From: Arabidopsis thaliana | Taxonomy: Eukaryota; Streptophyta; Magnoliopsida; Brassicales; Brassicaceae | Assembly (NCBI RefSeq): GCF_000001735.4 | Contig: NC_003071.7 | Coordinates: forward strand, 16,467,443-16,531,442 | DNA length: 64,000 nt | Direction of reading: 5' to 3' | Shown here: piece by piece, positions 1,672 through 59,570 of the stretch | Layout of the letters: each line of letters begins with the position of its first letter | Position numbering within the stretch: the first letter of the stretch is position 1 | Program-made: the position numbers and the translations under genes | Notes under the pieces: generated by a model | Databases searched by the model: none | What the model was told of the DNA's origin: nothing | Seen by the model: only the letters and a program-made list of their open reading frames with translations

Positions 1672-2582
1672 CAGAGCCCACTTGTATCAATTCCTCAGAT
1701 TCCTTCTATACCATAATTAGCCAAAGTTAACAATTTGGACAATGGTTAAATCCCAAACCCATAAAACACTAGTCAAATTGGTATGAGCAATCGTCTTATA
1801 ACAGTAGAAAATAACCTAATCTACCAAAATTTGATTCTCTGTTATATCAATCCATAAAGTATCAATTTTGCTACCTCGAAGATCATAGTCAAATGAACCC
1901 AGGAGAGAAATATCCCTCCAGTCCCAGATTTTGAGTTTTAGTTCGAACAAAACTCGAAAATTTGGTGACGAGAATTAAACTCTACCAATACAGAAGAGTA
2001 GAGAAGAAGAAGCAAATAAAACGGAAATCACAAAATGCCAAACACAAGTCTTACATTACAAAATCAAGCAAAAGCGCACGACGGAGATTGAGAGAATTGG
2101 TCTCTGAGAGAAAACTGCTAATTTGTGGTTTTCCCAAGGTGGGTTCTAAAATGGTCTGAATGTTTGATTTTTTTTTTTTTTTCACTGAATGTTTGATTAT
2201 ATTTACTTATATTTATACTGAAACAATTTAAATTATTTCTCTTAAACACATTTTTTTTTTATGGTTAGTGTTTTTCTTGATAGATTATTGTACTTCATTT
2301 TCGGACATCCAGGCTTGTAAAAAAAAGCATGCATAAGTTTTTATATAATCATGTTTTACGGGTCAATTACCAAACTTGAGTTTCTCTTGATGATTTCTAC
2401 TGGTAATGGTTGACATATAAGAAGAAAGATAGTGCAGGATCCATCACTGGACTGGAGATAATCATTAATCACAATCTCCTTTTACACGTGATCACTCTAC
2501 TAGTCACTAAAACCTGAATCCATTTACTAATGAGAGTAATGGCTTAGTCAATATGGTTACTACCTCTAGAGAATTTGAAATT
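1672..2582. other. Intergenic interval between RNase H2C and PIG-P
   Basis: Holds the 5' region of the RNase H2C gene and the 3' region of the PIG-P gene. A 65-codon lysine-rich open frame at 1962-2159 (plus) has no family resemblance and was not called. A short T-run insertion with flanking repeats at 2156-2198 is listed separately. Confidence 0.5.
2156..2198. repeat. Short T-run insertion flanked by 14-bp direct repeats
   Basis: The 14-mer CTGAATGTTTGATT occurs at 2156-2169 and again at 2185-2198. Between the copies lie 13 T residues followed by CA. This is the footprint expected if a severely truncated poly(A)-tailed retroposon inserted by target-primed reverse transcription. Slippage or a simple local duplication could give the same picture. 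Confidence 0.55.
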
Positions 2583-3683
2583 TTAATCACTTGAATTGAA
2601 CATAAGATCATTTATTCTTGTAATATCAATGTCAGAGATTGGATCTATAGGCCTGTCTTCACCTTCCTCCATCCCAGCAGCAAATTCACCAGGTTCTCTA
2701 CTGTACTCATCTGCCATACCAAACAAACAAACATAACTAGAATTATCATCCTAAGCAAACTCCCAAAACCACGCCCTGCAGATCCAACATTTCGAAGCAT
2801 TCTAGCTCTAGCTATTGTAATGACACAGCGAGCACTTACTTGAGAAAACAGATTTTTAGGAAACAATTTCTCATATCTCCAATAACATCAGATGAGAGGA
2901 AATTAAAGAGCGGTGCGGGCACTCACCAAACAAGGTATTGAGAGAGGTTGGGGGTGGAGTGGCGATGAAGTTGAGACCAATGTAAAAAGCCAAAGCTAAC
3001 ATCAGAGTCACCATCAAATACGTTGGCATAGCCAATACCCAATACCTACTAGGGTAGTAATGGATTCCTATAGACTCCAACAACTTATCTGGAACATATG
3101 CCCATACCAAGAAGATGACTGTGGCAACAACAGTCGATATCGATCCTACGAAACCGTACACCTCTGAGGGTTTAGGTCCATGCACTTCTGATGCTCTAAA
3201 TGAAGATGACCTTCTACTGTCTGTATCTTGGAAACCAGGCTTTTGCTTATTTCTCTTCGAGAAGCTTAAAACTCGTCTTGGACTACTCACTGAATGAGCT
3301 TCTTCAATGTTTTGGTCAAAGGAAGAGACTGAGAAATGAAAGAAAGATAATCAGTTGTTGGTTTTTCTCTCCTTGTCTGCTGTAACTAGATATCAATTAT
3401 GAAGATTGTAAATAGATTCTGTACAGATCAAGATAGACCAATTTGAAGGACTACATATAAACGAATTAAAATGAAAACTTTATTAACCTCACTTAGTGGA
3501 AGCTAATGAGGACGATATTGAAACTAATCACCTAACGAAACATGATTGAAAACATTAATCTAGACCAGTTAAATAGCGTCTCCATCAAAACTAAAGACTA
3601 ATGGTAGAAGATTCAAATCCATCACGTTCTAGTGAGATTCAAGGGGTTATCAATGAAAAGATCGTACCTTTAGCCGGAGACAT
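2583..3683 (-). CDS. PIG-P/GPI19 subunit of GPI-N-acetylglucosaminyltransferase, with a first exon derived from RPL23A
   Basis: PIG-P is a small ER-membrane subunit of the complex that adds GlcNAc to phosphatidylinositol, the first step of GPI-anchor synthesis. Coding exons 3683-3668, 3328-2927 and 2710-2583 join in frame to 181 residues. The family core is clear: GPKPSEVYGFVGSISTVVATVIFLVWAY (split here by position, about residues 55-82) is the first membrane segment, followed by HYYPSRYW and a second hydrophobic segment, then ATPPPTSLNTLF and an acidic C-terminus ending in RINDLMF. Exon 1 encodes only MSPAK and, with its donor, 5' leader and promoter, matches the first exon of the L23a gene at 7607-7622. 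Without that exon the frame opens only at a GTG (3290); no ATG lies near the family start. The splice acceptor at 3330-3329 follows a strong pyrimidine tract. The family call is firm; the start is inferred but well supported. Confidence 0.85.
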
Positions 3684-3940
3684 GGCTCGAAATGATTCTT
3701 CACACTAGAAATCTGTCTCAGGAAAACGAAAATCAGTTAAGGATCGGACAAAAGAAATGTAGGGAGATATCGAGAGACAGATTGCAGAATCGAGACACGA
3801 ACCTGGAGAGGTGAAGCAGCTGAGACTCAAACTACTTTGTTGGGCCTCGAATGGGCCTTTAACCACAATCATCATCTAACCCAGTAAGATTTGGATCGAA
3901 TATAATAATCCTCCATAAGTGACAAGAATTTCATTTTTTT
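3460..3940 (-). promoter_or_regulatory. Inverted copy of the RPL23A promoter, leader, exon 1 and intron 1 start
   Basis: Read on minus, this stretch aligns with about 7255-7825 on plus. The copy runs from an AATGAAATTCTTGTCACTTATGG-like far promoter, through TTACTGGGTTAGATGATGATTGTGGT (in two pieces under 20 bases this is visible at 3865-3886), two TGGGCC site II elements (3841-3846 and 3852-3857), the leader and exon 1, to the middle of intron 1. A 61-base core covering the end of the leader, exon 1 and the donor (about 3649-3709) differs from the L23a gene by a single base. About 45-50 bases present in the L23a gene, with its TATA-like box and two AGGGTTT elements, are absent from the copy. 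It now lies exactly where the PIG-P promoter should be. Confidence 0.85.
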
Positions 3941-4301
3941 GTTTGCACTTTTCACAAAAAAAGAAAGAAAGATAATAATGGTAAATAGGACTCCTCCTCG
4001 TCTGCACAAGACAACATCCATTTGAATATGTGGATCAGAGAATAAACTACTAATGGTTTTTTTTTGCAATTTGTGTGGTTTCTATTATGTCTTCTGCTTG
4101 AGACTAATCTAACATATGTCAACTTTATTCATTGAGACTGGAAGAGAAGTTATAATCTTGTTGCTAAATGAAACACGCAAAACAAAAGTAAATAGTTACA
4201 AAGGTATTCCTTTATCTCACAATTGTCTACTAAACAACAATACAGTGAAGATTAATTTGTAAAGATATAGAAACGTAGAGATCTTTAAAAAGGATAAACA
4301 G

Positions 4302-6293
4302 CTAACAGTGGGATCTAGCGTGCTCAGGTTTGTGAGTGTACTCATAATCAAGATGCACAAAAGCCCGTTCGATCTCCTCTAGTAGCTCGAGCTTCTCTTG
4401 CAGCGATTCTCCAATGTCGTGAGCCACTTGCAGAGGCATGTCAGCTGGGAGAACAATATCAACCTCCACAAAATAATGAGAGCCAAATGTGTATGCCCTC
4501 ACTGTGTCAATGTGCCTAATGGCTTTATGGTGGTTCCAACACAGGTAAGTTAGTTTCTGCAGATACTCTGGTCTAGCTGATTTCCCAACAAGAGAGTTAA
4601 CGTTCTCCAAGACCGTCATTGACCATGTCCGTATTGTGTATAATGCAAGCTGCATGAATTAAGAAACAATTTTCAGCAACGAGGAAAAAAAGACTTGATT
4701 TTGTTTTCATAAACTTGGAAACTTACAATGATAGCTCCAACTGGATCAATCCAATAATCAATGTAATTGGCCAGGATTACTGCAATGAGTCCAATGATGT
4801 TTGTGATGACGTCGAAGAAATGATCTTGAGCATAAGCTTTAACGATCTCGTTAGTGAAGGATCTGCAGTAAAGAACCAGAAGCAGTTTGACCAATGTAAC
4901 AGAAAGCATGATCCCAACTACCCAACTCTCTTGCTCTTTTGTTAGGTTGAACTCCTTGTGCTGTATGAAAGAGATTTCGTGAATAATGTATGACTTTCAA
5001 AGCTCTAGACCAAAGCTAGGTGATCAAGATTCAGACATACGCTGGATAACATTGTGCGAAGAGATTCCAAGATAATCTGCAATCCAAGTGTTGCCATCAC
5101 TGATGCAAAGACTAGGATTCCCTGAAAGGATTTGAACCAAAAATCACATATTGAGAAATCGGAAAAACTTTATTGACTTGTCGAAGGTGTTAATAGTTGC
5201 ACAGAGATATCAATAGCAGAAAACAAGCTTGCTTAGGCCGATTCAATAACATAACATATAATAGAAATATACTAATGGAAGACAGATCATGTGCATTAGT
5301 CTTTAAAAGGATGATACAAACCAGTGGTTGCATGCGTTTCTTGCCAATGGGATACTGATACGGGTTGGGTGTCTGCATGGAGAAGGCGGTAAACCAGAGG
5401 ATGAAGCCAGAAAGAAGATCAAGAAGAGAGTCCAATGTAGAGGCAATGATAGCTAAAGAGCCACTAGTGACAGAAGCATAGACTTTAGCAGCAAAAAGAA
5501 GCATGTTTGCAATGTTTGATATTCTAATCGCCAATGTCTCGCTTTTAGCCAAATTATCCTGCTCTTCCTATGTACACAAAACACAAAGAAATTCAGAAAA
5601 GTATCAATCAACAAGAACAAATGCATCATGGTTTCAACAAATGTGACAAGTAGTAGCCTCATTTAGGCTAACCTTTGACATTCCAGGAACAAAGCCACGT
5701 TCTGCAAGTTCATCCATTTCAGTAAAGCCCTCAAGCATCTCTACTTGCTGCTGGTAATAATCTGCCACATTGTCTTCCGGACCTGAAAACACCAAGACAC
5801 ATAGCTTCACAAAATCATATTTGATCTCTTCACAAAATCATATTTGATCACAAAATCATATTTGTTGACATTACTTCCACATCCAAAAGAAAGATTAGAG
5901 ACAAAAATCAAGGATCGGGATTAATGAACTCTAGACTAATCAATACCAAGATTCAACTAAATCTCAACTTCATAACAAGAGTAAAAATATATCTTTGAAG
6001 AATCAAAAATGCTAAAGATAGCAAACAAAAGAGGCCGAATTCAAATGTTATCAGCTGCTGCTAAAGATTGAAACTGAAGAAGACGATAAGAAAATGGAAA
6101 TGCGGAGAGGAGGAGCAAATTGTTTACCCAAACAACCAAGACAGTTGTGTAGTTTACTCGGAGATTTCTTCTCCTTGTGTTCCGGTGAAACCTGGAAATC
6201 ATCGAAATTTAACTGCCAGGAACGGTCACCGTTACCGTGAAACTCGAGCAGCGAGATCCCTTCGTCGGAATCTGGACTAGCTGGCTCAACCAT
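4302..6293 (-). CDS. MTP11: Manganese transporter of the cation diffusion facilitator family (MTP11)
   Basis: Golgi/pre-vacuolar Mn2+/H+ antiporter giving manganese tolerance in plants. Six exons (6293-6128, 5782-5673, 5567-5322, 5121-5041, 4960-4727, 4649-4302) give 394 residues, the length I remember for MTP11. The two metal-site motifs typical of the Mn group are present: DSLLD (residues 138-142, membrane helix 2) and DHFFD (247-251, helix 5). The cytosolic C-terminal domain holds the [11 protein letters not shown]...VEVDIVLP ferredoxin-like fold. The ATG at 6293 begins [12 protein letters not shown]. Intron 1 carries a short tandem repeat near 5813-5864. The gene is divergent from RPL23A, with about 1.3 kb between the starts. 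No defect seen. Confidence 0.96.
5813..5864. repeat. Short tandem repeat in MTP11 intron 1
   Basis: The unit CACAAAATCATATTTGAT appears two to three times in a row with small spacers (TCT, TT). It is intronic and low complexity; no function is suggested. Confidence 0.7.
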
Positions 6294-7606
6294 TTTTCCG
6301 GCGGCGGAGAGAGACTTTGTATTTTTTTTTTTTTTTTTTTGAGAGAGAGAGAGAGTGGTAAGGAAATGGGAAATTTGAAGAGACGGCGAGGGTAAAATCG
6401 GTAATTAAGAAAGATTGAGGCTAGCTACTACGACTGTTGTGGTAGTAAGACATTCCTCCACAGAGATACTTGGACCAGCCTTTAGAAGAGACGTCTCTGC
6501 TAATTATCCACGTGGCGTTCTCTCAATGGATTTGGGATCTCGCACGTGATTGGAGGAGTCATCATACACACGTGTACAGTTGAGATTCAACTGCAATTAA
6601 ACGACCCCGTGACATGACATGGTTATGAGTCACATATGTGCCCTCTCAAACTCTATTATGTAGTATAAAAACTGTATTAGATACAACCGACCCAAGATAT
6701 AGAAGAACCTTTGAAAAATGGTAGAAGCCAGTTCAGCTAAAGCTTTCTTCTTCACAATTATCGTAAAATATTAGACATGTAGAGCAGGCTTGTTGTTCTC
6801 TTATTGTCAAGCGTAAGTAAATGATTATTGTTTAGTTTCGTGACCAATTGGTTTGTTTTTTGGTTAGCCATTGTTCGATTTGCTTTGGTTTGGTCAAAGA
6901 TTGTATGCTTTCAAGTCAAACCAAAGCTGACTAAATTTTATTCTGTAATAATTTACTTTGGAATGGCAAAACCAAAGAAAGGTCATAGACACAAGAGAAG
7001 AAGCAAATATGTTTCTTACGCCAAAAGACACGTTTGTATGGTAAGACAAAAGACACGTTTGTATGTTTCTTACGCCAATACCATTACGTTAAAAATAAAC
7101 TAGTAACTTAAATTTACGCTCACTTTCTATTTGGGTTTTACATGATGATTTTGGTCAAAGGCCTATTTACAATGTTGCAAGCCCATATTATCTTTTAAGT
7201 ATCTTTTTGTGCAACCAAAAGAATCAGTGATCTTATGCTCATTTTCATTTTTTTCTAATGAAATTTTTCGTCACTTATGGCTTATGCGTCCGATGGACGA
7301 TTATGGTAAAAGGCCCATTTATTCAATCCAAAGCTTACTGGGTTAGATGATGATTGTGGTAAAAAGGCCCATTATAGACCCAACTAAGTATCTTAGGGTT
7401 TCAGTTTCCACTATAAAACTTGTTGCGGCGTAAGTTAGGGTTTTGAGAATCAGCGGCTTCACCTCTCCAGGTTCGTGTCTCGATTTTGCAAACTATCTCT
7501 CGAAATCGTCCTACATTTCTTTCTTCAGATTCATTACTGAGCTTCGCTTTCTGGGTTTCTATCTAAAAATTTCACAGATTTCGTGTGTGAAGAATCATTT
7601 CAAGCC
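6294..7606. promoter_or_regulatory. Divergent promoter region of MTP11 and RPL23A
   Basis: Contains the promoters of both neighbours. On the RPL23A side there are GGCCCA site II elements at about 7312 and 7366, AGGGTTT telobox-like elements near 7395 and 7438, and TATAAAA at 7412-7418, a usual combination for plant ribosomal-protein genes. At 7009-7078 short segments (GTTTCTTACGCCA and AAGACACGTTTGTATG) each occur twice. Open frames at 6828-7103 and 7443-7640 show no family resemblance; the second covers the L23a leader. Confidence 0.7.
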
Positions 7607-8462
<856 letters not shown>

Positions 8463-28586: not shown

Positions 28587-29495
28587 TTAATTTCGTTTGG
28601 CCATGGCAAAGGATGAGAAAACAGATAAAACAGCAAGACAGATGAAAGCAAAGAGAAGAAGACTGGCCGATGCGTAGCCTTTGCTAAAGAACTTATCCAC
28701 TGGATCAGTCGAATCTAATGCGACTAATGCTAGAAATGTGTCTTTCAAATCTTTGGTCACTCCAAATCCAGCTGCAGAACCCGTCGCCACTAGGTATGAT
28801 ATTAACTGCCAAATTTTCAATTATGATCATTAGTTAGGAAAAAAAAACACACATTTTCATGAAAGTTTCGTTTGATTCAAAGTATCAATAGGTTCAAGAA
28901 ATTAATTTGGTTAGAAATTAATTAAATACCTTGTCACCGTAAAAATCAAGTTGATAATTAAAAGGGTTTTTCACTCCGGTGGCGAATTCGGAGATTGTGA
29001 AGAACAGTTGTATGACGGCGTAAACCAGTCCAATGACGGCAGCTGAAAGCATATATCTTCAAGAAGGCAAAAAAAAAAAAAAATTAAACGAAAAAGTTTG
29101 ATACTCTTCGGTTTAATTAATAACCAAAAAATGCCCAAATTTAAATTCCTAGTTTAATTAATAAACTCATAAATGACTTATTACAAGCACAAACCAAAAT
29201 TCTTTGATCAAAACATAACAAATTACTTTAGTTTATGACTATTGATTTCCTCAATCGTACAAACCAACTCGAATATAAATACAAAAAATTGTAAATTAAG
29301 AGTTTCGTTCAATTACCTATAAGCATAAACATCTTTGAAATGAAATTTCAATGCGCTTCCTTGAGATACAATGGTGACACTGTTGGTGCTGAGGATGATT
29401 AGCGCTATAACAAGGAAAACTCCTGTTAAAACCCTAAGTAAAAGGAGTAAAACCTTCAACGAAACAGCTGGTGGCGAAGGAGGTGGTGGTGCCAT
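28587..29495 (-). CDS. CASP-like membrane protein (CASPL4D type), copy 1
   Basis: Four-span MARVEL-related protein of the family that forms the Casparian strip membrane scaffold; most CASP-like members have unknown local roles. Exons 29495-29317, 29056-28930 and 28805-28587 give 174 residues. Features: proline-rich cytosolic start (MAPPPPSPP), span 1 LLLLLRVLTGVFLVIALIIL, conserved YAYRYMLSAAVIGLVYAVIQ in span 2 with the family arginine, DFYGDK before span 3, and span 4 KGYASASLLLFAFICLAVLS. The intron phases and exon lengths of the first two exons (179 and 127 bases) are identical to those of the copy at 31.2-32.0 kb. From memory At2g39518. Confidence 0.93.
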
Positions 29496-31216
29496 AAAAT
29501 TGATCAGTACGTTGAATGAAATTTAATGATCTTCTTAAATTGGTAATCGGAGAGGAAGAGGAAGATAAAAGTCTGAGATTAATTTATAACCAAAACTTGC
29601 TGCCAGAGGGATAAGAGTTGACTTTTGCTCTATGGCATGGGACCAAGTAATGACGGTAAATGTCAAACAAACAAAATAAAGATACTTATGAAATATACCA
29701 AAGTTTATTGTTGAAGTCGTGCTCAAACTGGATCACCACGTCTAGCTTACCAAATCAATGGGATACATATTTTTTTCCTATAATATTTTAAATCTCAAAC
29801 TTAAAAAACACACCAAGCTTAAATTAAGTGCAAATTAAAATTAAGGTAAAGGCTATTATAAAGAAGCTTGTGAAGATATAGTTAGTTATCTACCGGCGAA
29901 ACTTCAAAGCCGTTTATCATTTTTCTATCTGCAATATCAATATTGAAAACAGTTCTATTTAGGAAATAAAATCTAGAGAGTTTGACTATCCGACTAAGGC
30001 CTTATATAACGGCGTCCAATTTAGCGATCAACGTTCACATTCGCTACTCGTTTACGATGATTACAATTTCTCAATACTTTCATTTAGTTGACGAATTGAG
30101 AAATTGCACACGGAAGGTTTGGTCAACGTATCCAAAGGAACTCATAGAGCTTCTCAGAGATTCGATGGTGACACACTGACACTGACAGTTTATTACATAA
30201 ACGTATAATTAGAGGGAAGAAAAAGAACTGCCATATTAACTATGTAAAATGTAAATTTTAAGCACCTTTTAAAAACTTATATCCAAAAACAAATGCACCC
30301 TTTTAGGCTTTTATACTAGTTGTTATGATACAAGATTACAAGACACGGAATGCGCGAATTAACTAAGCAAAAATATTAAATAATGATTATGATTACATTG
30401 ACTATAACGATAGGAGTTGAATTTTATTAATGTCAACGTCAACCATTTTTAAAAAAAATCATAGAAATGCATATTGTTTATTTTTTATTATTATTTAATT
30501 GCAAATTTGCAATCGTGAAGGACTCAAAAGCCGTATATAAACGAATTATGTAAATTACTAATAACATTTTTGGAAAAAATGTGAATATTCAGGATATAAA
30601 AATAGTATAATACTTAAATTATTGTTCGTACAAGAATGACACGTAACTGCAAACGCGTTGACTTCGTAGGCCTAATTAAAACGCTTATGAAATTGCCAAT
30701 AAACACACACGGGAAAATAGTAACATCCAAACATTGCATGGAAAAGAGTTTAAGGTTTGTGAAGGAATTTGAGAATTTTCTTCCTTACTTTTTTTTTCTT
30801 TCTGAAATTAAAATTGTTTTCTTCCTTCAATTTTGATGAAGAAGAAAACACATAAACGTTGCAAAACGACACTATACATGTTGACTTTTGGTAGGCGTAA
30901 ATGATTCGTTTTACTGGCAAATTATGAAAAGTTAGGGCTTTTTAATAACATTTTTTAATGATCCGACACAATAATAATTTTGCATGATGATTAGAAATAA
31001 GAAGACTTGACCTTATAGATAGGTTGGTTACATATGTTTTCACAGAAATAGTACTCCCAAACATAGCCTTGCGAGATATGTAGCCAACAAAGTAATATAT
31101 GTATTTGGTAACGTGACCCAAAGAATCTTAAAAAGCGTATAATCTTATTAAATTCCACGATTGGTGAATTAAAATGAAGGAAGCATAATGTAGGGTTACA
31201 ATGATCATATGTGTGT
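29496..31216. other. Interval between the two CASP-like copies
   Basis: About 1.7 kb, AT-rich. It contains the promoter of copy 1 and the 3' side of copy 2. Open frames at 29982-30179, 30636-30836 and 30991-31359 show no family resemblance; the last is partly antisense to copy 2. No intermediate gene remnant was found. Confidence 0.5.
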
Positions 31217-31959
31217 TTATGAGACTGGAACTGGTCGTTTGGAAAGAGCAAGGGATGAGAAAACGGATAAAACGGCAAGAGAGACGAATGCGAAGAGAAG
31301 AAGACTGGCCGATGCATATCCTTTACTAAAGAACTTATCCACTGGATCAGTCGAATCAAATTCTATTAATGCTATGTATGTGTCTTTCAAATCTTTGCTC
31401 ACTCCAAATCCTGCCGCCGAACCCGTTGCAAGTAAATATGATATTACCTGTCCAAATTTGAACCAGATTTTGTTATATATCAATATACAGTATGACTTAT
31501 AATTTTAATGTATTTAAAGATAGTATTTCCTCAAAAATGATATAAATACCTTATCACCGTAGAAATCGAACTGATAAGTAAGAGGATGTGTTTTTCCGGT
31601 GGCAAATTGGGAGATTGTTAAGAACAGTTGTACAACGGCGTAAACTAGTCCGATGACGGCAGCGGACAGCATGTATCTTCATGAATGATGAATCCAAACA
31701 TATATGCAAAAAATAGGTAAAAATAGTTAGTCAAATATTGGATACAAAATTTTCACAGAGAAGGTAAATAATTTATTTACCTATAAGCATAGACATCGTT
31801 GAAAGGCAATTTGATAGACGTGCTTGAAATTTCGAGAGTGACGGTGTTGGTGCTGATGAGGACCACCGTTATGAGGAGGAAAGCCGCGGTCAAAACCCTA
31901 AGGAGAAGGAGCACTGTCCTCAACGTAACGGACGGTGGTGCCGGAGGTGGTGGAGCCAT
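31217..31959 (-). CDS. CASP-like membrane protein (CASPL4D type), copy 2
   Basis: Tandem paralogue of the gene at 28.6-29.5 kb. Exons 31959-31781, 31676-31550 and 31447-31217 give 178 residues. It shares the MAPPPP start, span 1 TVLLLLRVLTAAFLLITVVL, FNDVYAYRYMLSAAVIGLVY around the conserved arginine, GDK at the end of exon 2, and TGSAAGFGVSKDLKDTYIAL leading to span 4. The introns are much shorter than in copy 1. The last exon ends RPVPVS where copy 1 ends AKRN. Both copies are intact, so this is a live duplicate pair. From memory At2g39530. Confidence 0.94.
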
Positions 31960-33423
31960 ATAAATCTTCCCGTTAATTAATCGTTACGCTTTAAAGAGTA
32001 AGATGAAAATGATTAAGGCTAAGATGTTCGAATGCAAGACATGGAATGTTGACTAATTTATAGCCAAAATTTACGTTGACTCGAGTTCGAAGAGTTGATT
32101 TTTGTTACATTATAATATTTAACCATAATGTAAAATATATATATGCACAAATTGTATTCTTCAATTCGTGCTGGAGCTTGCTGGAACTCGATCACCACTT
32201 CTAAGTTCTAACTTAGTAATTGAAGTCGTGATATATTTTATTGACATATGGTATTAATTTAGATTTAAAACAGTTTTTAGCCAAGGAATTGTAAGTCTAA
32301 ATTCATAGTCTTCGTAGCCAGAAGGCAACCTTTGATATTATTTTTATTATCTATATCTTTTTTTTTTTTTGGACAAAGCTTGTATCTACATCTAACTGAG
32401 AAAAAAGAATGTTTTTCTTTGTCATATTATTGTTCTCAAATTCTGATTATACAACTTTTGACATCAAATCATAATTATGCAATCAAACAAACAAACCAAA
32501 AAAGAAATATGCGACTAGCGTAATTTTTGCGCCACAATGTATTTTATATGCATAGCAAATCATTAGAATCCTAGTACAACTGTACAAAGTTCGAGTTGGA
32601 CACCTAGCAGCGATAATTCAAACCATGTTTCCATCTAATGTAACAGTATAGACTTAGTCGTCTATCAATTTTAGGTGCAATCATTCGTATTAAAAAGAAA
32701 ACTTAGTTTTTTTTTCATACTGTTTAGAGGAACAAAATACATGTAACAAGAGGTACATTTTTGTTTGAGTTAAATTTTACAATTTTTGAATATATAGTCA
32801 ACGAAGACCGAAAAAGTTGAGTCAATTCCTAAGAATCAATCTGCCACATGCATCGCCGTGCTTGAAGGGCGGCTCACTGTCTTCTTGCTTATTACTACAG
32901 TTAAATCTTTTTTTTTCAACATCTAATGCTATACTTTTAATCTATAATATATATTAGATGTGACTTAAGGAATTTCAATAGTTATACATAATAATAAAAA
33001 TGAATATTTGTTAGTGTTACAAACTGTGTGTCATAATCATCATTCATCAGGATTTCAAAAATATCTCAAAATTGTTGTAAGTTCATGTAATTCGAAATGA
33101 ATGTGCACTATAAGAAATAAATTTACAATTTAAAAAATGCTTCAATACTGGTTACAAAAAAAACTTTCAATACTAGTATTATACTACTTACTTAGTCAAA
33201 AAAGTTTATGAATATGGTTTTTTCTGTATGTTAATATTTTTAACTGAAAATAGTACCGACATAACAAGTAAAGATATCTTTATTTAAAGTAACAAACATT
33301 AATTTCACTTCAAATTCTCACTATTAAGGATTCCTCTCTTTGTAGCCACATTTCACCATCACTACTTTGTTTTCGCATATCTTTAAATTTTGTATACGTA
33401 GCAAACTCTTTCGAGAAAACAAG
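31960..33423. other. AT-rich gene-free interval
   Basis: Holds the promoter of CASP-like copy 2 on the left and of the GASA peptide gene on the right. A T run followed by GGACAAAG lies at 32359-32378 with imperfect similar sequence on both sides, possibly an old poly(A) insertion. No gene seen. Confidence 0.5.
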
Positions 33424-50805: not shown

Positions 50806-51121
50806 TATCGCCTCTACACACATAAATATAAGAATTGCCTCATAAGTTTCATGACTTGTGTGTTGTGTCATAAAAGAATCATAAATTCAGACTTTTTGTT
50901 ACCTGCCGATTTCAATTTCAACTAGATTACAACAAACGTTAAAATTCTCACGCAGACAAAAACTCACAAAAGTTACTTACGTATTCTGGCTAGGGTTCAG
51001 AAGGTTTTAAAACTAGGGTTTTTTTAACGGAGAATATATAGCACAACCCTAATCTCTCTTCTATGTACGTTCCCATTTACTACGAAACCCAGTTTTTACT
51101 GGGCTTAAAAAAAAAAAATTA
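50806..51121 (-). promoter_or_regulatory. RPS15A leader and promoter with telobox-like elements
   Basis: Read on minus, AACCCTAG elements occur near 51018-51025 and 50990-51000, and an AAGCCCAGT site II-like element near 51095-51103. This is the usual architecture of plant ribosomal-protein promoters. A probable leader intron begins at a GTAAGT near 50981 and ends just before the ATG. Confidence 0.6.
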
Positions 51122-51193
51122 AGAGCCCAACCGGATTCGAACCGGTGACCTATTGATCTGCAGTCAATTGCTCTACCACTGAGCTATAGGCTC
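51122..51193 (-). tRNA. tRNA-Cys (anticodon GCA)
   Basis: The 72-base sequence folds as a full cloverleaf. The acceptor stem GAGCCTA pairs with TGGGCTC, the D arm is GCTC...GAGC, the anticodon loop CTGCAGA carries GCA at its centre between ATTGA and TCAAT, and the T arm ACCGG/CCGGT encloses TTCGAAT. There is no intron and no encoded CCA. A run of T on the transcribed strand follows within 15 bases, as expected for RNA polymerase III termination. It is a mirror image of the gene at 51327. Confidence 0.97.
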
Positions 51194-51326
51194 TTATTGA
51201 CTTTAGTGTATACTACTTATATATAACTTAACAATTATGTTTCTCCAAAATTCTGTTTTAAGTAAAATAATGTTCTATCATGCAAGTTTAGTATTTCTAT
51301 TAGTTAGCATACACTAAAGTCAAGAA

Positions 51327-51398
51327 GAGCCTATAGCTCAGTGGTAGAGCAATTGACTGCAGATCAATAGGTCACCGGTTCGAATCCGGTTGGGCTCT
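51327..51398 (+). tRNA. tRNA-Cys (anticodon GCA), inverted second copy
   Basis: Identical 72-base cloverleaf to the minus-strand gene at 51122-51193, with the same GCA anticodon loop and box A (TAGCTCAGTGG) and box B (GGTTCGAATCC) promoter sequences. A T run follows at once (51396 onwards). The two genes are transcribed away from each other, 133 bases apart. Confidence 0.97.
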
Positions 51399-51525
51399 TT
51401 ATTTTTTGTCTCTTAACAGAGATTTCAACAGATTTTCCAATATTTCTCACAATTTCAATTATACTTAGAAAGATTTTTTGATACAGTAAAAGATAGAGAA
51501 GAAGAATCAAAAGAATTGAGTATTC

Positions 51526-57728: not shown

Positions 57729-59570
57729 TCAGAGCGTTACTGATGCTGGTACGACGCATGTGCTAGTGCTTGGGTTGGTAGTAGTGACGATGCCACTACC
57801 ACGGAAGTCACAAGCGTCTTTGGAGTATCCTTTGCTCTCGTAATAAGCGTTCATTATGAACGTGGATCGAGTCTTCATGTTGTTGTTATCAAAACATATG
57901 CCACCAGGTGATATTGGTTTACAATCAATACCTTGGCTACACACCCAATCAATATTAGCTTGTAGTTGTGTCTCTGTCGCTTCTTGTTTCGCCATACACC
58001 AATTTGCACTTTTGCTTTTTGCGCCATTGCCGCCGCCACCTTCCCCTATCGGTATAGGGCATGTGCTAGTGCTTGGGTTGGTACTGGTAACGATGCCAGT
58101 ACCGCTAAAATCACAGACAACATCAACGCATCCCTTGCTTTGGTAATAAGCGTTCATAATAAACGAGGACCGAGTCGTCATGTTGTTGTTGTCAAAACAT
58201 ATGCCACCAGGTGAGATTGGTGTACAATCAATACCATGGCTGCATACCCAATCAATATTTGCTTGTAGTTGCATTAACGTCGCTTCTGGTTTTCCCACAC
58301 ACCATTTTCCATTGTTGTTTATCGGTGGAAACGGAAGCGGGCTTCCACCGCCTTTTAGAACTCCAACATCATACATCGGTGAAAAATCCGGTTTAAATAT
58401 CCCCCAATTTCTCTCACGTGTTGGACCGGGTTTTCCATCTTCATTGAACAATGCAAATATGAAGATATCGATGTGGCGGTTGGGCATTAGAGGTGTCCCT
58501 ATAACTTGTGCACGCTTGATGATATTGAGGTTGTAGTTTTCAGCGTTTTGAGGTGAGCACCATGAAGCGTCACAAGCCGTGGGCCAACCGGTCTCCCCTA
58601 CCGCGATATCTACGTCGCCATAGCCAAGAGCTTTCATAGCAGAATATGTTGCATCCATGACTGCGTCAAACATGTTGGTGTAGGTTTGTTGTGTATTGGT
58701 ATCCGTTATTGCATTTGATGGACCAAATATTGCGTAATTGACATTGTTCGTGTCCATCGTGAAAAAAGTGTAGGCGTTGATCATGAATGGGGACTTAGCC
58801 TGACGATGAAATTCCAAGATCTTTGTAAAAATATCTTTTTGATCGTTAGTAAATCTGCTCTCACTTGGTGTATTACGGTTATAGCTTATGGTAAATGCAT
58901 GTGGAGTTGTCACCTGAAGCCAAATAATGGTGGATTAATTACATTTTGTTGATAGTAGTATCAAATAACAACGTATTCAAAAAATATTTATGAAATATGA
59001 TTCATATGTAAAAAAACAAAAAAAAAAACATTCATGTATTAGTATTAGTGTTTTCGTAAACGCAAGTTTTTTTTTTTTTTTTTATCATCATGACTTGAAA
59101 CTAACCTTGATATAAGTGAGATTGGAAGCTTTTAAAGCTTCGTTAAGACTTTGCATCGCTGGTACAAGATTTGATATCAAGTTATTGTCGTTACTAGCAA
59201 GAATCTCGTTTCCGACACAAACGTATTTGAACTTGATCTGCTGCTGAAACGGTAAGACATTGGCAGCGACCCATTGACGAGCATTTGCAACGTTGACCAT
59301 GGCAGGAATGTTACCGTTAGGGACCATGATGGTGATGTTGATTTCAGAGCCCGCGAAGGCTCGGAGGATGTCGGGATTAGCATCATAGATCTTGACACTG
59401 TCAAAAGTGGTCTTTGTCTTGATGAAGTCAACCACTTGTTGTGGAGGTTGAAGGTTCCCTAGTGTTCCATAGTTGATACCAATGGCGGAAGTCACGGCTG
59501 AGAGTTGAAAGATCACGCCGGCGACTATGAGGAGGAAAGGGAGAATGAAAGACCGAATCGTTTTGGCCAT
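57729..59570 (-). CDS. GH17 beta-1,3-glucanase with two C-terminal X8 (CBM43) domains
   Basis: Secreted cell-wall beta-1,3-glucan hydrolase or binding protein. Exons 59570-59106 and 58913-57729 give 549 residues. A signal peptide (FILPFLLIVAGVIFQLSAVTSA) leads into IGINYGTLGNLQPP. The proton donor E122 lies in CVGNEILAS and the nucleophile E262 in VGETGWPT, so the catalytic pair is intact. Two X8 domains start at W359 (WCVGKPEAT) and W460 (WCMAKQEAT), each with the family cysteines and PGGICFDNNNM. The two X8 units are about 303 bases apart in DNA and very alike, so they arose by internal duplication. The protein ends VVPASVTL without a hydrophobic tail, so no GPI signal is seen. From memory At2g39640. 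Confidence 0.95.

Follow-up and report, generated by a model that had tools for sequence, protein, structure and literature searches.

At the left of the window, a stretch of 64,000 nucleotides of Arabidopsis thaliana DNA (NC_003071.7), two of three neighbouring genes, whose order places them almost certainly at AT2G39445-AT2G39460, share a duplicated segment. AT2G39445 has its predicted coding region on the minus strand, from 3683 to 2583, and is designated a PIG-P gene in published work (PMC6642530; PMC3709736). Beyond it, also on the minus strand, a cation-efflux gene reads from ATG to TAG across 4302..6293 and separates the two copies of the segment; Pfam ZT_dimer and Cation_efflux match two of its exon pieces. 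By position this gene is AT2G39450, which we take to be MTP11. RPL23A follows on the plus strand, with a coding region at 7607..8462 (exons 7607-7622, 7926-8289 and 8378-8462); it is RPL23aA, AT2G39460, a locus name used in a paper that describes two Arabidopsis paralogues with 95% identity (PMC7545930). RPL23A shares 146 of 154 residues with PDB chain uL23y (9h3g), which equals the percentage reported for the paralogues. In a table of an article on bidirectional promoters, AT2G39460 (60S ribosomal protein L23aA) and AT2G39450 (manganese transporter) form a putative bidirectional pair with a value of 331, which we read as their distance (PMC4222868). A small basic ORF of 46 residues at 6963-7103, between the start codon of the efflux gene and RPL23A, probably arose by chance. 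The order along the window is PIG-P, inverted copy, efflux gene, original copy and RPL23A, and the donor and recipient of the borrowed start lie within 6 kb of each other.

The duplication of the RPL23A 5' end is certain. The inverted copy (3464..3940, minus strand) spans the distal promoter, the leader with its predicted intron, coding exon 1 and the first ~200 nt of intron 1, and its counterpart in RPL23A is the donor block at 7255..7827 on the plus strand. With positions 2501-4600 as a blastn query against the window, 3464-3831 aligned to 7827-7442 on the minus strand (318 of 387 columns identical, 82%, with 20 gaps; E 4.5e-108) and 3833-3902 to 7390-7320, again on the minus strand (63/71 identical; E 1.4e-19), which confirms the sequence-only reading that an inverted copy of this 5' end lies upstream of PIG-P. 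The outer end of the similarity can be traced to about 3936-3940, opposite 7255-7259, with a local score of 46.8, where 500 single-base shuffles reached 28.2 at most; the outermost stretch, 3903-3940, is short, partly T-rich and less firm than the remainder of the copy. Past the ends of the block the similarity is not significant, its score being reached by 6.6% (left) and 75% (right) of 500 rough shuffles. The 39-mer that starts at the ATG has just two exact occurrences in the window, and a match with at most three mismatches was seen in 0 of 100 shuffles. Other duplicated sequence in the window includes a direct duplication at 28593-29499 and 31235-31963, with pieces 77% and 73% identical that are possibly tandem genes, and an adjacent, gapless direct repeat of 262 nt at 57756-58017 and 58059-58320 (82% identical).

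The clean alignment (3464-3902) contains 59 mismatches over 438 columns (K80 0.148) and, besides these, 21 gap columns, a figure that excludes a 50-nt gap described below. Mismatches amount to 7/70 in the upstream part of the copy, 4/31 in the leader exon, 19/89 in the leader intron, 3/29 in the second leader exon, 0/16 in the coding exon and 26/203 in intron 1, with part borders good to one base. A core of 61 bases around exon 1 differing by one base had been pointed out; the longest stretch interrupted by no more than one mismatch does measure 61 columns, but one of this length was reached in 4.5% of 20,000 shuffles (p ~0.045), barely beyond chance clustering. We weighed gene conversion or strong selection on this core and set both aside, the clustering in the clean alignment being only marginal; as evidence of special constraint the core counts for little. 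Further into the copied intron, a second stretch of 34 nt (3514-3547) is identical to RPL23A and has no Rfam match. A snoRNA in the copied intron was also considered as the cause of conservation: the only Rfam matches in the window at gathering score are two tRNAs, and between 3300 and 8600, at E up to 2, neither of the two sub-threshold matches (E 0.28 and 1.7) falls in that intron. Far from this locus, at 51113-51407, two tRNA-Cys (GCA) genes stand head to head in an inverted repeat of ~295 nt with 84% identity. With K80 between 0.148 (all columns) and 0.172 (outside the core) and assumed substitution rates between 7e-9 and 1.5e-8 per site and year, the duplication would date very roughly to 5-12 million years ago, introns and leaders possibly evolving more slowly than neutral sequence.

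The borrowed coding exon 1 (3668..3683, minus strand) consists of 16 nt identical to RPL23A, encoding MSPAK and the first base of a V codon. It begins with the ATG at 3683 and would be followed by a chimeric intron 1 (3329..3667, minus strand) with donor GT at 3667-3666 and acceptor AG at 3330-3329, derived from RPL23A between 3667 and 3464 and made of other sequence from 3463 to 3329. PIG-P exon 2 (2927..3328, 402 nt) and exon 3 with the stop codon (2583..2710, 128 nt) lie on the same strand, and under the predicted splicing the joined exons (16+402+128 = 546 nt) form one ORF of 181 residues and a stop. Start codon, splice sites and exon lengths are those proposed earlier, in an interval (3306-3940) that reaches from the borrowed part just into exon 2, while the predicted coding region runs on to 2583. 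Pfam PF08510 (PIG-P) recognises residues 60-177 of the joined protein with E 2.7e-40 and 137.4 bits, where the cut-off is 39.3, and the match spans profile positions 2-121 of 121. Two hydropathy peaks above 1.6 fall within residues 61-89 and 101-130, and two membrane segments are typical of the PIG-P family. No PDB chain matched the protein by sequence at E up to 1. Its family membership makes it a putative part of the GPI-GlcNAc-transferase complex.

That PIG-P has no ATG of its own near the start of the family sequence, as the sequence-only reading also held, is borne out: in the open frame of exon 2 the borrowed Met is followed by no other before residue 106, which already lies in the second hydrophobic stretch, and the genomic frame 5' of the exon is stopped by a TGA at 3353-3351 with no intervening ATG. 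Translation would therefore need an upstream exon or a non-AUG start, and the copied exon fits this need best. Of its three frames, exon 2 is open in a single one, and this is also the frame into which the 16-nt exon leads, an agreement expected one time in three by chance and weak taken alone. Among the nineteen in-frame combinations of an ATG and a donor listed within 3331-3990 that reach exon 2, the borrowed pair has the best donor when scored against the donor consensus (7/9 letters; the next best has 6). The ATT codon of Ile13 (3306..3308, minus strand) is a candidate relic of an older start codon, purely as a hypothesis that draws on plant PIG-P N-termini. We are fairly confident that the gene is a chimera whose 5' part was duplicated from RPL23A and whose two parts share one ORF after the predicted splicing. 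In a microarray study, AT2G39445 was altered in roots in all six light-intensity comparisons, a gene-level result that says nothing on which start is used (PMC6642530).

What was copied upstream of the start codon is less complete than the capture of a whole promoter, start codon and first exon that had been proposed. Start codon, exon and the splice sites of a leader intron are all in the copy, the last not having been spelled out before. The predicted leader intron (3713..3802, minus strand) is 90 nt long and retains GT...AG, its RPL23A counterpart measuring 107 nt (7471-7577), and the conserved sites suggest that it would be spliced in both genes; the copied leader (3840-3684) contains no ATG. 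In the copied promoter two site II boxes (GGCCCA) are retained, spanning 3841..3857 on the minus strand with first bases at 3857 and 3846, but at the junction 3832..3833 on the same strand 50 nt of RPL23A (7391-7440) are missing. Lost with this stretch are a telo-box (7394), the TATAAA at 7412 and the greater part of a second telo-box (7436), and a further RPL23A site II box, at 7312, is likewise absent from the copy. Plant ribosomal-protein promoters usually combine site II and telo-boxes (PMC3022908; PMC3212954). Within 3684-4010 there is no AAACCCT or AGGGTTT, so the copy does not have that layout. There is no TATA[AT]A in the copy either, and the sole TATA on its strand within 3684-4010, a TATATT at 3904, lies 5' of the site II boxes. 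Because the TATA and telo-boxes are gone, promoter activity of the copy is not assured. The proposal that PIG-P took over the regulation of a ribosomal-protein gene thus exceeds the evidence, with two site II boxes kept and TATA, telo-boxes and one site II box absent.

As to direction, the segment most likely moved from RPL23A to PIG-P, because the MSPAK/MAPAK start is common to RPL23A homologues and the Pfam match of PIG-P begins only at residue 60. The 9h3g chain starts MSPAKV like RPL23A, and three of four other aligned uL23 chains start MAPAK, the start of the fifth lying outside the alignment displayed. A pattern search for PIG-P relatives in viral contigs (1 match) and genome contigs (36 matches), none of them confirmed, brought up no plant sequence and no relative with this N-terminus. 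That the similarity arose in the opposite direction, or by chance, is very improbable in view of the shared N-terminus of the homologous uL23 chains and the alignment's E of 4e-108, and nothing was found in favour of it. How the copy came to stand before PIG-P is a different matter, and three histories fit the sequence: it may have landed before a resident PIG-P gene, it may have landed before a truncated duplicate, or it may mark an inversion with staggered breaks. The replacement of an old PIG-P start that had been proposed is accordingly something we infer at most, as a truncated duplicate or an inversion explains the same letters. If the PIG-P body is a truncated second copy, for which the RPL23A piece supplied a start and nothing was replaced, the present anatomy is the same and only the history differs. 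This account, which we hold possible though not favoured, has on its side that no old PIG-P first exon or promoter was recognised by eye in the ~360 nt (3941-4301) before the stop of the efflux gene, and that Arabidopsis may have a second PIG-P locus, AT1G61280. The body retains a predicted intron (2926-2711) and is thus no retrocopy; the Arabidopsis match of a pine transcript is AT2G39445 (E 2e-37; PMC3709736), which weakly suits an old gene; a chestnut study lists AT2G39445 in one column for a gene model and an unrelated locus in the next and is ambiguous (PMC7465717).

An inversion is rather less likely still. It would have flipped the efflux-gene segment, and fill-in of staggered breaks would have given each edge of the segment an RPL23A 5' end, the two facing opposite ways; the promoter of PIG-P would have been carried off to the distant edge, and that of RPL23A would have taken its place. 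The order of genes and copies seen here is the outcome expected of this mechanism, which is documented at Drosophila inversion breakpoints (PMC3355041). Against it stands a self-repeat in the RPL23A promoter (7142-7208 with 7347-7401, at a score reached by 0 of 1000 rough two-base-block shuffles) that extends beyond the donor block on the left; the flank at 7142-7208 therefore resembles old RPL23A promoter and not a displaced PIG-P promoter, unless a longer block was duplicated at first and this portion has since gone from the copy. Whichever history holds, the borrowed ATG might go unused, with translation starting at an upstream ATG (3875 or 3872) joined through the leader donor at 3802, or at a non-AUG codon. 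In its favour, joins from both ATGs through 3802 are open in frame, and this donor has 6/9 consensus letters against 7 for the borrowed one. Against it, the donor has a nearby acceptor (3714-3713) retained as in RPL23A, and transcription would have to begin upstream of the site II boxes; we regard such a start as improbable.

We therefore return to the chimera that starts at the borrowed ATG. About 570 nt of the RPL23A 5' end were copied, inverted, ~3.3 kb away and directly upstream of the PIG-P body. Transcription would begin in or near the copied leader, served by the remaining site II boxes without the TATA and telo-boxes of RPL23A; splicing would remove the leader intron and the chimeric intron 1, and the borrowed ATG would open a product that reads MSPAKV and then continues into the PIG-P body. 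The six residues cap a polar N-terminal tail, ~55 residues ahead of the first hydrophobic segment, and for that reason probably leave the enzyme subunit unaltered. The effect of the borrowed start would probably lie in where and how strongly PIG-P is expressed, presumably as a weaker, altered form of the growth-linked pattern of RPL23A. A bolder reading, to which we give little credence at present, is that a gene acting at the start of GPI-anchor synthesis has come under a stripped-down ribosomal-protein promoter, and that site II factors now tie the opening step of the GPI pathway to growth signals; if true, the PIG-P/RPL23A pair offers a natural experiment in which control by site II and by the telo-box can be told apart. 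On the same reading, an antisense transcript might leave the copy toward the 3' end of the efflux gene, given that PMC4222868 lists RPL23A and the gene divergent from it as a putative bidirectional pair.

If the borrowed start is used in the plant, the locus shows how a small local duplication can alter the regulation of a conserved enzyme subunit while costing the protein next to nothing. Donor and recipient are so close that their parts can be compared letter by letter, and the loss of TATA and telo-boxes makes it testable which parts of the promoter matter. To our knowledge, few nuclear plant cases are equally clear. In the open-access literature searched we found no description of a chimeric origin of AT2G39445, and plant GPI reviews name PIG-P without this locus number in their available text (PMC7704450; PMC7769824).

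The kind of event is known, both as chimeric genes and as acquired 5' leaders, from PMC3449122 and PMC2631504. RPL23A itself has the site II and telo-box layout of ribosomal-protein promoters described in PMC3022908 and PMC3212954, whereas the PIG-P copy keeps two site II boxes and has neither telo-box nor TATA[AT]A. At the Drosophila inversion breakpoints, too, non-repetitive DNA is duplicated in inverted orientation around a segment and the structure of a gene at its edge is changed (PMC3355041); here the inversion is hypothetical, with one observation against it. Like the chimeric duplicates, and the partial duplicates with recruitment, reviewed by Katju, PIG-P would draw its coding region from two genic donors, the 5' part by duplication at the DNA level (PMC3449122); unlike those cases, its donor gives five residues and one codon base, and mainly leader, splice sites and parts of a promoter. 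Nuclear rpl6 of rice is similarly a plant gene with a foreign 5' leader that includes an intron, but there a transposable element gave the 5'-UTR and the receiver was a mitochondrial gene moved to the nucleus (PMC2631504), whereas PIG-P received its leader from a neighbouring gene for a ribosomal protein, apparently together with the start codon.
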